Shown: positions 3,922-60,085 of the stretch, one piece after another
Layout of the letters: every line of letters begins with the position of its first letter
Position numbering within the stretch: the first letter of the stretch is position 1
Source of the DNA: Candidatus Jettenia sp. AMX2
Lineage (GTDB): Bacteria; Planctomycetota; Brocadiia; Brocadiales; Brocadiaceae
Direction: 5' to 3'
DNA length: 64,000 nucleotides
Assembly (NCBI GenBank): GCA_030583665.1
Contig: CP129469.1
Coordinates: 930,001-994,000, forward strand
The notes under the pieces: model-generated
What the model was told of the DNA's origin: nothing
Database searches by the model: none
Seen by the model: the letters and a program-made list of their open reading frames with translations, nothing else
Position numbers and translations under genes: made by a program

Positions 3922-4763
3922 ACACACTGAAAGCAAGGTTTCTCTTTGGCACCGCGATGTTTGCTGTGTTCTTTGGCATCATATCCTTTGATTGGGTTTT
4001 TCAGACCGATTTAGGATTCGGATGCCTGGCTGTCATTGCCGGAGGAATTGGTTTATACGAGTTTTATACCATTGCAGGTAAAAACGGTTTCTTGCCATTC
4101 CGGATATCCGGAATCGCTATTGGTAGCGGGTTATTTATTGCATATTGGTTGGCTATCCGTAATAATTCAGGAGCAGATTACCATTTTTTAAGACAAGAGG
4201 TTATCCTTGCATCTCTTTTCTGGCTGTTGATACTTCAGGTTTTTACACACGGCGCAAAAGATGCCATCAAAAATATTTCTGTTACGATATTTGGTATTCT
4301 TTATGTGTTTTTTCTTTTAAGTTTTGCCATTACGCTACGGTACCTTCCCCATGGTATTTGCATATTGGTCATGGTTTTGTTAATATCTAAAGGTGGCGAT
4401 ATCGGGGGGTTCCTGTTAGGCCGAAAATACGGCAAGCGCAAGCTGGCCAGATTTATAAGCCCAAACAAAACGGTAGAGGGTGCCTGTTTTGCCTTTTTAT
4501 TCAGTATTTTCATTGCGGTAATTTTCAACTTAATTCCGCAGATTAAGGTGATAAACCTGCCGTTATCAATCTTGTTTGGTGCAGTTGTAGGCTTTTCAGC
4601 CATGATGGGTGATTTAACGGAATCACTTCTCAAGAGAGATGTAAATGTAAAGGATTCAAGCCATTTAGTACCCGCCTTTGGTGGCATCCTCGATATTATT
4701 GATTGCTTGTTAGTGAGCATGCCTGTTGCTTATTATTTCCTGATAGTTTTTCAATTTGGTTAA
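3918..4763 (+). CDS. cdsA: Phosphatidate cytidylyltransferase
   Basis: CdsA makes CDP-diacylglycerol from phosphatidate and CTP, the branch point of phospholipid synthesis, in the inner membrane. The 281-residue protein has about seven to eight hydrophobic segments. It carries the KGGDIGGFLLGRKYGKRKL region and the C-terminal family signature SLLKRDVNVKDSSHLVPAFGGILDIID. In that signature the usual PxHGG histidine is phenylalanine (PAFGG) and the usual DR is DI, so it departs from the PROSITE-type pattern at two places while keeping K-R...K-D and the Asp pair. The start is GTG, overlapping the uppS stop. Position directly after uppS is the common bacterial uppS-cdsA arrangement, which supports the call. 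Confidence 0.92.
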
Positions 4764-5758: not shown

Positions 5759-5860
5759 AAGGCTATACATAAGATTTATTGTTTATCCTGAGGCAAAATT
5801 GGATGAAGGTTTTTTTAATCTCTTTATGCGTTGGTAAATTAAGCAAATAAATAAATTCGT

Positions 5861-6427
5861 GTGAATCTGGAAATTATAAACCTGCAGAAATTTTGTCCTG
5901 TCGATGAAAGCAAGATAAAAAAGGTTATAAAAACTGTTCTCAGAGATGAAAAAAAAGATGCGGAACTATGCGTCACCCTGATGGATAATAAAGGCATAAA
6001 GAAGGTAAATAAAAATTTCCTGAAGCATAATTATGCTACCGACGTGCTGAGTTTTGCTTATCATGAAGCTTCTCGTAAAAATAAGGTAGCACAGCAAAGT
6101 CAGCATAAAATATGCCGCTCTGTTCCTTTACAAAAAGAAGTGGAAAAGCCAGGTAAAACCTGCTTTCGCTCACATGATGATGAAAAAAAGTTTTTACAGG
6201 AGAAAACGATAACCGGAGAGATTGTTATATCAGCAGAAATGGCTGCAGAGGTAGCACAAGAGAATGGATATCCGGTCGAAGGAGAAATTGTCCTCTATGT
6301 AATTCACGGATTGCTGCATTTGCTTGGATATGATGATAAAAAGAAAAGTGCGGCCAAAAAAATGCATCTTAAGGAAAAAGAATTATTGGAGAGATTTGGT
6401 TACCATAATATTCCTGTACCTGATTAA
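5861..6427 (+). CDS. ybeY: Endoribonuclease / rRNA maturation factor YbeY, with an internal insertion
   Basis: YbeY is a metal-dependent single-strand endoribonuclease needed for 16S rRNA 3'-end maturation and ribosome quality control. The metal site is HGLLHLLGYDD: His149, His153 and, in place of the usual third His, Asp159. Asp at this position is also known in other YbeY groups, notably Bacteroidetes. The protein is 188 residues against the usual 150-160. The excess is a charged, low-complexity insertion at about residues 69-117, between the SFAY segment and GEIVIS. The start is GTG 5861, with no clear Shine-Dalgarno sequence. It follows phoH, matching the conserved phoH-ybeY pair. Confidence 0.9.
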   Translation: MNLEIINLQKFCPVDESKIKKVIKTVLRDEKKDAELCVTLMDNKGIKKVNKNFLKHNYATDVLSFAYHEASRKNKVAQQSQHKICRSVPLQKEVEKPGKTCFRSHDDEKKFLQEKTITGEIVISAEMAAEVAQENGYPVEGEIVLYVIHGLLHLLGYDDKKKSAAKKMHLKEKELLERFGYHNIPVPD

Positions 6428-6446
6428 GATTTATTGTATATAACTT

Positions 6447-7211
6447 ATGCCTGTTTTAAAAACAGAGGCGATTACCCTGAGGAGGACAGATTATAGTAAT
6501 TCCAGCCAAATAATTACTTTTTACACCCGTAATTACGGAAAAATTCGTACCCTTGCAAAAGGATTTAAGCGTTCATCCGGAAAGTTCAATTCGAAAGCGA
6601 TAGACCTTTTAACATACTGCCAGATTCTTTTTATCAAGAAAGAACATTCATCACTTTATACCCTTACCGATGCCGTCCTGCAAAATAATTATCCGTTGTT
6701 TCGAAATAATTTAGATGCCTATTACAAGGCTGCCTGTATTGCTGAACTTTTAAATGAATTTACAGAAGAAAGCGATCCCAGTGAACAGTTATTCGATATT
6801 TGCCTGGAAACATTATCCCGCATGGCTGCTAATACTGGCACAGCAGTATATTTTCTTGCCTATGAGATAAAAATGCTCAAGGTATTAGGTTATTTACCGG
6901 AATTAAGATATTGTGTAAATTGTACAGGCAGTATTCAACAAGTAGCAGAGGTGTATTTTAGTGCAAGAGCAGGGGGCGTTTTGTGCAGGCAATGCCAGGA
7001 AAAACTCAGAAATGGAATTATTGTTCCCGCCAGTGTGGTTTTCATTCTAAACCGTTTAGCTGATTTCAACATTCAAAGATTGAGCAGAATAAAAATACAA
7101 TCATCTATTTGTATTGAAATAGACAAGATGCTGAGATATTATATAACTTTTATCCTGAATAAGGAGTTGAATTCATGGAAATATCTGAAATTTGACGAGG
7201 TTTTGACATGA
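6447..7211 (+). CDS. recO: DNA repair protein RecO
   Basis: RecO works with RecF and RecR to load RecA on SSB-covered gaps. The 254-residue protein has the N-terminal OB fold (TEAITLRRTDYSNSSQIITFYT...GKIRTLAKGFKR) and a helical domain. A zinc module is formed by CVNC near residue 156 and CRQC near residue 178, as in most RecO proteins. It lies 19 bases after ybeY and its stop overlaps the following gene's ATG by four bases. A phoH-ybeY-recO order is common in bacteria. Confidence 0.92.
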   Translation: MPVLKTEAITLRRTDYSNSSQIITFYTRNYGKIRTLAKGFKRSSGKFNSKAIDLLTYCQILFIKKEHSSLYTLTDAVLQNNYPLFRNNLDAYYKAACIAELLNEFTEESDPSEQLFDICLETLSRMAANTGTAVYFLAYEIKMLKVLGYLPELRYCVNCTGSIQQVAEVYFSARAGGVLCRQCQEKLRNGIIVPASVVFILNRLADFNIQRLSRIKIQSSICIEIDKMLRYYITFILNKELNSWKYLKFDEVLT

Positions 7212-8140
7212 ACGTAGCAAGGAAACTAACGTATATTGTTCCTTTGTTAATCATTGTAGCCGGCATTCTGGTAACCCCATCATATGGAAAATGGGTATGG
7301 AATAAGGAGATGGGCTGGATAGAGCCACCGGCTGAGGAAATTACAACCCAGGAACAACGTTACCGATATGCAGTTTCCCTTCTTGTTGAACAAAAATATA
7401 TGACGGCGATAAAAGAATTTGAAGCGATTATTAAAAGCGATCCTGATTCCGAATATGCTGAGGTTTCCCAGATAAATATTGGAAGGGCTCACTTTCTGAA
7501 TGGTAATTATAAGCGTGCCCTGAAAGCTTATGACAAAGTATTGCAGAAGTATCCTGGCACAAGAAGGGTGCCAGAAATACTTGAAAGCAAATTTCAACTT
7601 GGTATTGCTCAGATGGAAAAAAACAAAAGGGCGGCCATAAATATTTTTGAAAAGATTATAGCAAAACATCCGTTAGGCCCCCTTGCTGCGGATGCCAATA
7701 TCAAGATTGCTGATTCTTACTTTGAACTTGGTCGCTATGAGGAAGCACTTGATACCTATGAAAGATTTTTAGAGAATTATCCCAGAAGCGAGTGGGTCCC
7801 GTATGTATTGTTCCGGATTCCTATTTCAAAGCTATCTCATGAAAGGCGGCAGGAAAGGAATACTGGTCTTCTTGCTTCTGCCCAGGAAGATCTCGAAGTA
7901 TATCTTGCCTCATACCCTTATGGTGTATATGCTGAGGATGCGAAGAGGATGATTGAGGAAATAAGAATTATGAAAGCAGAACGGGAATTTCGCATTGGAG
8001 AGTTCTATTTGAGGGTAAAAAAACCTATATCAGCAGCAATGTACTTTGAATTTGTTAAAAATGATTTTCCAGGTACCGTCTGGGAAGAAAAAGCTAGTGA
8101 CCGGTTAAGATTTTTAAGAATGATCGGGGCTATAAAGTAA
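7208..8140 (+). CDS. BamD/YfiO-like TPR outer-membrane assembly protein
   Basis: The protein is 310 residues, with a signal peptide of about 27 residues (hydrophobic core IVPLLIIVAGILV, likely cleavage after SYG). A KWVWNKEMGW segment typical of planctomycete BamD-like proteins follows, and then about five tetratricopeptide repeats (for example YRYAVSLLVEQKYMTAIKEF and ADSYFELGRYEEALDTYERF). BamD proteins are periplasmic TPR scaffolds of the complex that inserts beta-barrels into the outer membrane. Unlike proteobacterial BamD there is no lipobox cysteine, so it is probably not lipid-anchored. The LptE-like gene downstream fits an envelope role. A generic TPR periplasmic protein is the alternative. 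Confidence 0.72.
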   Translation: MNVARKLTYIVPLLIIVAGILVTPSYGKWVWNKEMGWIEPPAEEITTQEQRYRYAVSLLVEQKYMTAIKEFEAIIKSDPDSEYAEVSQINIGRAHFLNGNYKRALKAYDKVLQKYPGTRRVPEILESKFQLGIAQMEKNKRAAINIFEKIIAKHPLGPLAADANIKIADSYFELGRYEEALDTYERFLENYPRSEWVPYVLFRIPISKLSHERRQERNTGLLASAQEDLEVYLASYPYGVYAEDAKRMIEEIRIMKAEREFRIGEFYLRVKKPISAAMYFEFVKNDFPGTVWEEKASDRLRFLRMIGAIK

Positions 8141-59452: not shown

Positions 59453-60085
59453 ATGAGTATCGTAATAGAAATCGATTACCGTGAAAGGGAATCCGGGATT
59501 ATAGAGCTATTACAGGCCCAGGAGAATTTTTCTGTAGAAGTGAAAAGATTGCCGGCAGGCGATTATCTTGTTAATAACTATATCGCATTTGAACGAAAAA
59601 CAACAAAGGACTTTGTTCTATCCATCATTGATGGAAGGTTATTTTCTCAAGCTTCCCGGTTGAAGAGATATGCTGGGATGCATTGTATGATAATTGAGGG
59701 AACTGATTTATTTTATACCGGTTATAAGATCGATTCACAGGCGATTAAGGGAGCGCTTGTTTCGTTGTCAGTCTCATGGCAAATTCCTCTGATTTTCTCA
59801 AAATCTTCGTCCGGTACTGCAGAGATATTAATTATGGCAGGGGACCAGCATGCCAGGTATCATGATGAAATAATAAAACGAACAGGGAGAAGACCTAAAC
59901 GCATACAAACAAAGAGGCTGTATTTCCTGCAAGGGCTGCCTGGCATCGGGCCGGAAATGGCAAAAAGGATGCTGAATCATTTTGGGAGTATAGAACGGAT
60001 CATCAATGCTGATGTTCAGAAACTTACTTGCGTAGAAGGAATTGGTAAGAAAAAGGCATCCGTGATCCGTAAAATTATTGAGTGA
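59453..60085 (+). CDS. XPF/ERCC4-type nuclease with helix-hairpin-helix pair
   Basis: The 210-residue protein opens with an ERCC4 nuclease domain: IEIDYRERESG, AGDY at 35-38 and the catalytic FERKTTKDFVLSIIDGRLFSQ (ERK-x3-D at 47-53). After a linker comes a tandem HhH (LQGLPGIGPEMAKRMLNHFGSIERI...LTCVEGIGKKKASVIRKI). This nuclease plus (HhH)2 layout, with no helicase, is that of the short crenarchaeal XPF, a structure-specific flap/3'-overhang endonuclease used in repair. Such proteins are uncommon in bacteria. All key catalytic residues are present. It stands alone, with no clear ribosome-binding site. Confidence 0.9.
   Translation: MSIVIEIDYRERESGIIELLQAQENFSVEVKRLPAGDYLVNNYIAFERKTTKDFVLSIIDGRLFSQASRLKRYAGMHCMIIEGTDLFYTGYKIDSQAIKGALVSLSVSWQIPLIFSKSSSGTAEILIMAGDQHARYHDEIIKRTGRRPKRIQTKRLYFLQGLPGIGPEMAKRMLNHFGSIERIINADVQKLTCVEGIGKKKASVIRKIIE

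Follow-up and report, generated by a model that had tools for sequence, protein, structure and literature searches.

The stretch of DNA analysed here (the window) spans 64,000 nucleotides of the genome of Candidatus Jettenia sp. AMX2, which is a single contig of 3.46 Mb, and carries a short, intact XPF-family nuclease gene on its forward strand (59453..60085, ATG start, TGA stop) encoding a protein of 210 residues, P0001. An ERCC4 nuclease domain occupies residues 7-126 (59471..59830; Pfam PF02732, 93.1 bits against a cut-off of 24) and is followed by a tandem helix-hairpin-helix (HhH) region at residues 159-207 (59927..60073), recognised by Pfam HHH_5 and HHH_2 and by the Hef structure 1x2i. 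The HHH_5 match covers residues 159-203 with 50.3 bits, and both it and ERCC4 lie well above their cut-offs. The catalytic motif GDY-x8-ERK-x3-D, located by sequence and in an alignment of 46, falls at residues 36-53 (59558..59611), where the active site is complete (G36-D37-Y38 ... E47-R48-K49-TTK-D53); residues D8, R10, E11, D37, E47, R48, K49 and D53 are invariant across the 46 bacterial and archaeal sequences aligned. Only nine codons extend the open frame upstream of the start, so that no helicase is fused to P0001, and the chain stops three residues past the HhH region (residue 207), leaving no tail. The gene is real and not in doubt, since the copy in the congener G001 is 74% identical to P0001, dN/dS values of 0.079-0.182 were obtained in seven of the eight pairs of intact anammox copies tried (the eighth pair was saturated) and the AlphaFold model is confident. 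The gene is also present, at 74% identity, on SOER01000031.1 of Candidatus Loosdrechtia aerotolerans. The GC and GC3 content of the window gene resemble those of its neighbours.

An AlphaFold monomer model of P0001, built from 46 sequences, reached a pLDDT of 91.4 and a pTM of 0.65. Its best Foldseek matches were 2bhn (E 2.7e-18) and 2bgw (E 5.5e-18), both Aeropyrum pernix XPF, while a sequence search of the PDB with P0001 retrieved Aeropyrum pernix XPF at E ~3e-31 and the Pyrococcus furiosus Hef nuclease domain at 5e-20. Domain by domain, the Foldseek superpositions were close, with an rmsd of 1.6 A for the Hef nuclease domain 1j24 and of 0.9 A over 62 columns for the Hef HhH structure 1x2i. 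Over the whole chain Aeropyrum XPF superposed poorly (rmsd 12-15), which is taken to be a different placement of the domains in the monomer model. P0001 is like the crenarchaeal short XPFs (Aeropyrum pernix 2bgw/2bhn; Sulfolobus XPF) in length, in the order of ERCC4 and (HhH)2, in its motif and in lacking a helicase; it differs in having no PIP-bearing tail, and the two stand on opposite sides of the branch separating Bacteria and Archaea. The initial annotation had described an ERCC4 nuclease of 210 residues with this motif and tandem HhH, in the crenarchaeal XPF layout but in a bacterial host. The Pfam matches, the intact motif and the ranking of Aeropyrum XPF as best PDB match, by sequence and by fold, bear this description out.

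The archaeal Xpf equivalog model NF040956 scored P0001 at 110.5 bits, below its cut-off of 300. This failure is weak evidence, because a trimmed crenarchaeal piece (L095) likewise stayed below that cut-off with 166.9. Among the NCBIfam models the Hef one gave P0001 a higher raw score than the Xpf one did; a reading of P0001 as Hef-like rather than XPF-like on these scores was rejected, as the crenarchaeal control also scored higher with the Hef model. The nuclease and HhH domains of the Hef/FANCM-type nuclease half (Pyrococcus furiosus 1j22-1j25, 1x2i) do superpose on P0001, but P0001 has no helicase, either fused or separate, and reaches 191 bits where the Hef model has a cut-off of 610. When the whole window genome was searched with this model, the nuclease half was found at P0001 only; the 22 further matches, all far under the family cut-off, were short pieces of helicases and HhH proteins. 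A split Hef with its helicase encoded elsewhere was discarded, as the genome holds no Hef-type helicase over the cut-off, and the absence of a helicase domain, also claimed by the initial annotation, was confirmed.

XPF is an accessory gene in anammox bacteria, under purifying selection where intact and broken or absent in many relatives. Of 33 genomes from the family of the window, several of them incomplete assemblies, 12 have an intact full-length XPF, seven a broken or incomplete copy and 14 none. The seven broken or incomplete copies have in-frame stops (G008, G012, G016), have masked bases (G002), lack the N-terminal part (G017, G030) or are split over two contigs (G018). The window copy sits among ordinary chromosomal genes, its neighbours encoding a CNNM/CBS protein, a nitrilase, an ABC transporter, a hybrid histidine kinase and a TPR protein. 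The convergent CNNM/CBS gene adjoins XPF in G000, G001 and G002 and lies a few kb off in others; no Xpf remnants were detected at the CNNM locus of the relatives examined (L218-L222, L225). A dedicated partner gene was rejected as a candidate, the neighbours being unrelated, changing between genomes and in no case universal. So was a role of XPF as a substitute for RuvC, which is present in 29 of 32 genomes, the window's own included, irrespective of XPF. The XPF of G020 clusters with that of the window (100/91), whereas the copies of the other genomes sharing its genus code form a separate group (100/97); it lies at a different locus (L210 8636-9286, reverse strand), where a gene for a UvrD-type helicase follows just downstream. 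This grouping against the genus code, together with the change of locus, indicates that the G020 copy probably arose by transfer between anammox genera.

Outside anammox genomes, 162 of the 72,556 plasmid records matched P0001 at E <= 1e-3, 136 of them from Pseudomonas, the weakest matches being to the HhH of UvrC or LigA only. The bacterial megaplasmid proteins annotated as 'ERCC4 domain-containing proteins' (Pseudomonas and others) share the layout of P0001 and its bacterial side of the tree. They differ from it in forming a separate clade, in ending, in some cases, in beta-clamp-like C-terminal peptides, and in an active site that is degraded in some. The branch could thus be mainly an enzyme of mobile elements, with a part in maintaining megaplasmids, in recombination or in competition among elements, and the anammox chromosomal copy would be stranded and domesticated. 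The plasmid matches, a few of which reduce to UvrC or LigA HhH, the position of some plasmid copies beside a plasmid recA, and the G020 copy, which groups with the window's genus against the genus codes and at a different locus, are all in keeping with this. We nevertheless regard it as unlikely, as the window copy lies in ordinary chromosomal surroundings, with the CNNM gene also adjacent in G001 and G002, and the Brocadiales stand apart from a 17-row set, almost entirely plasmid-borne, that is supported at 100/100.

A phage or defence gene was also considered and rejected. Back-translated patterns, which reach close relatives only, found no relatives of P0001 in viral_contigs, the PADLOC anti-phage defence models returned no family at E <= 1, and 14 of the 50,697 phage records matched P0001. 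These 14 were mostly archaeal viruses, the Acinetobacter ones being UvrC HhH matches. The archaeal tailed viruses HCTV-1 and Drs3 carry short ERCC4-HhH proteins of their own on long branches (L198 2845-3534; L197 2926-3582). The phage ERCC4-only nuclease phrog_3490 has the ERCC4 domain of P0001 but is ~150 residues long and lacks HhH, and P0001 scores only 25 bits against it. A second, ERCC4-only protein of ~150 residues occurs in several Brocadiaceae genomes (L017, L018, L020, L024, L025, L026, L028, L029), and the four tested (L018, L020, L024, L025) match this phage family.

A C-terminal PIP box is a feature of PCNA-dependent XPF. When P0001 was scanned whole, neither a PIP box nor a pentameric beta-clamp motif was found, and the sole loose match to a hexameric clamp pattern, QIPLIF at residue 110, lies inside the conserved nuclease fold. 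The PIP box is given as QXXhXXaa in PMC4929162, and the beta-clamp-binding motif as Q-aliphatic-x-[L/M]-[F/L], tolerant at the second position, in the review PMC11139829. Brocadiales XPF proteins end ~5-12 residues beyond residue 205 with tails that average six residues, and none of the 12 distinct tails (14 rows) is long or has a PIP or clamp motif. The remark of the initial annotation that P0001 shows no obvious PIP box is borne out. The accompanying claim that archaeal versions need PCNA stands for Sulfolobus solfataricus XPF, for which the dependence is reported in the part of PMC7776575 consulted, but was not found to hold for all archaeal XPFs. PIP-like tails are present in several short Thermoproteota XPFs (e.g. 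QKTLHDV, QGTLDEY); among 65 distinct archaeal tails, five fit a minimal PIP pattern, where shuffling gave a mean of 0.78, and none fits the full published pattern.

Alternatively, the bacterial sliding clamp might recruit P0001 by way of a site that is cryptic or non-canonical, as it probably does with certain relatives carried on plasmids. The Pseudomonas megaplasmid XPFs end in QPTLF, QPSLF, QQSLF or QPTLL, and the pattern Q[AVILMP].[LM][FL], which allows proline at position 2, was matched by six of the 77 distinct bacterial tails from outside Brocadiales; shuffling gave a mean of 0.18, and 0 of 1000 shuffles reached six. However, the strict published consensus with an aliphatic position 2 matched none of the 77, and the six matching tails are not independent, being close kin in one plasmid branch. 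The looser tail patterns were in part settled on once the tails had been seen, and almost every match to them comes from that one clade; the Pseudomonas tails are therefore a lead and not proof. As none of the 12 distinct Brocadiales tails has the pattern and the protein ends at the HhH, we hold clamp recruitment of P0001 itself to be improbable.

Prevalence was counted with P0001 as the query at E <= 1e-12, each count including the centre genome. XPF was found in 33 of 392 Planctomycetota genomes (the search, run at 1e-5, returned 60 genomes, the remainder being partial or short, HhH-type matches with E values no better than 8e-9), in three of 297 genomes of the phylum of L044, titled Deltaproteobacteria, in six of 398 of the phylum of Pseudoalteromonas L047, in 15 of 194 of the phylum of Verrucomicrobia L062, and in 112 of 121 sampled genomes of Thermoproteota, the phylum of Desulfurococcaceae L095. 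XPF is thus sporadic in the four bacterial phyla sampled (1-8%, values that are overstated since the phyla were picked for having a match and the centre genome was counted) and near-universal in the sampled Thermoproteota; on the megaplasmids of Pseudomonas it is common.

A quick tree with 158 rows and a careful one with 149, both made without fragments and duplicate loci, were in agreement. The nine rows left out of the latter were two archaeal viruses (L197, L198), five long or odd branches (L109, L143, L147, L142, L050) and two archaeal-like contigs in bacterial MAGs (L002, L085). Of these, the quick tree placed L142, L143, L147 and L050 with the bacteria and L002 and L085 with the archaea. 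Both of the last are archaeal-type sequences, L002 on a 3.1-kb contig of G028 and L085, from the Clostridia MAG RGIG2552, inside Methanobrevibacter, and probably represent contamination. In the careful tree, which is unrooted, 83 bacterial rows (Planctomycetota, Pseudomonadota, Thermodesulfobacteriota, Verrucomicrobiota/Lentisphaerota and single MAG rows from others) are split from 66 archaeal ones by a single branch with moderate support (89/68), recovered in 87% of 200 bootstrap trees. The Brocadiales XPFs (14 rows) form a clade (100/99) nested in a bacterial group of 22 rows (99/90) that also holds Thermodesulfobacteriota, one Pseudomonadota, one Chlorobiota MAG and one other planctomycete. 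Forcing the Brocadiales together with all archaea cost 21 log units of likelihood; this grouping is disfavoured, although the AU p of 0.053 falls short of formal rejection at 0.05.

The XPF of the window is a member of a sparse, bacteria-wide branch and not a fresh acquisition from archaea. The initial annotation had suggested transfer from archaea. What the tree largely returned is a widespread bacterial clade, the outcome that the annotation itself had named as contrary to its reading, and the suggestion is not supported for entry into the anammox lineage, where the nearest relatives are bacterial; the part that survives is an old crossing, as the contrast in prevalence between Thermoproteota and the bacterial phyla makes it likely that the bacterial branch as a whole had its origin in archaea long ago. 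The best fit is an old crossing between domains, after which the gene spread horizontally and was lost time and again. An ancient prokaryotic XPF that was passed down to both domains and then disappeared from most bacteria would agree with a single branch between Bacteria and Archaea in an unrooted tree, but sits badly with the patchiness of XPF in every bacterial phylum sampled and with the mixing of phyla inside bacterial subclades of the quick tree, and we give it little credence. Recent transfer from an archaeon to an anammox ancestor draws on the prevalence contrast and on an AU test that does not quite reject it, and is very unlikely given the 22-row bacterial group that holds the Brocadiales and an identity of P0001 of 45-50% to Thermodesulfobacteriota relatives against at most ~41% to archaeal rows.

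We therefore favour, as the probable reading, a helicase-less and tail-less bacterial XPF that would act as a clamp-independent, homodimeric 3'-flap/fork endonuclease with a dispensable back-up role. What has been observed is the fold, the complete catalytic site, the action of purifying selection, the patchy distribution, the bacterial identity of the nearest relatives and the lack of a tail, whereas activity, dimeric state, substrate, independence of the clamp and cellular role are inferred. The (HhH)2 domains would dimerise P0001 and grip duplex DNA at a junction of single and double strands, where the metal-dependent ERCC4 site (D37, E47, R48, K49, D53) would nick one strand near the junction; a homodimeric structure-specific endonuclease is also to be expected from the part of PMC7776575 consulted. 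Likely substrates would be 3' flaps, splayed forks and other branched DNA of this kind. With no helicase, tail or partner, DNA structure is the most likely recruiter, and P0001, which has no detectable clamp peptide, would read it itself. The scattered presence of XPF and the general presence of RuvC point to a dispensable back-up nuclease that may act on stalled forks and on intermediates of recombination, alongside the usual bacterial set. Its gene is part of a branch that probably departed from archaea in the distant past, is exchanged among bacteria today and is frequently lost. More tentatively, and on balance doubtfully, a single ancient crossing of XPF from archaea to bacteria may have been coupled to a change of clamp tether: the PCNA peptide would have been lost, the Pseudomonas megaplasmid branch would have gained a beta-clamp peptide (QPTLF/QPSLF) at the same position, and the anammox branch would have been left tetherless, as a minimal clamp-free XPF.

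XPF is treated as an archaeal and eukaryotic enzyme in the reviews consulted in part (PMC7776575 among them), and the portions of the open-access literature consulted contained no study of bacterial XPF. An anammox bacterium is here found to have a small, intact member of a repair family that is familiar chiefly from archaea and eukaryotes. Its bacterial branch, spread over chromosomes and megaplasmids and with clamp-like peptides in some members, offers a natural experiment on how structure-specific nucleases are recruited without PCNA, a question directly approachable with purified proteins.

Two further types of protein were seen among the megaplasmid relatives. At three of the 23 plasmid loci read, L203 (pQBR57) 3983-4687, L204 (pKF715A) 3983-4690 and L233 1483-2190, the ERCC4 proteins lack the catalytic motif (ERK changed to LRL or LRM, GDY lost) and a clamp-like tail, and all three genes have a plasmid recA and a Crp/Fnr gene next to them; judged from their sequences, they are possible nuclease-dead, ERCC1-like members. 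The protein at L112 (pMPPla107) 5816-7657 has ERCC4-HhH fused behind a region that matches ATPase_2 weakly, under the cut-off, and may be a megaplasmid-borne fusion of ATPase and XPF.
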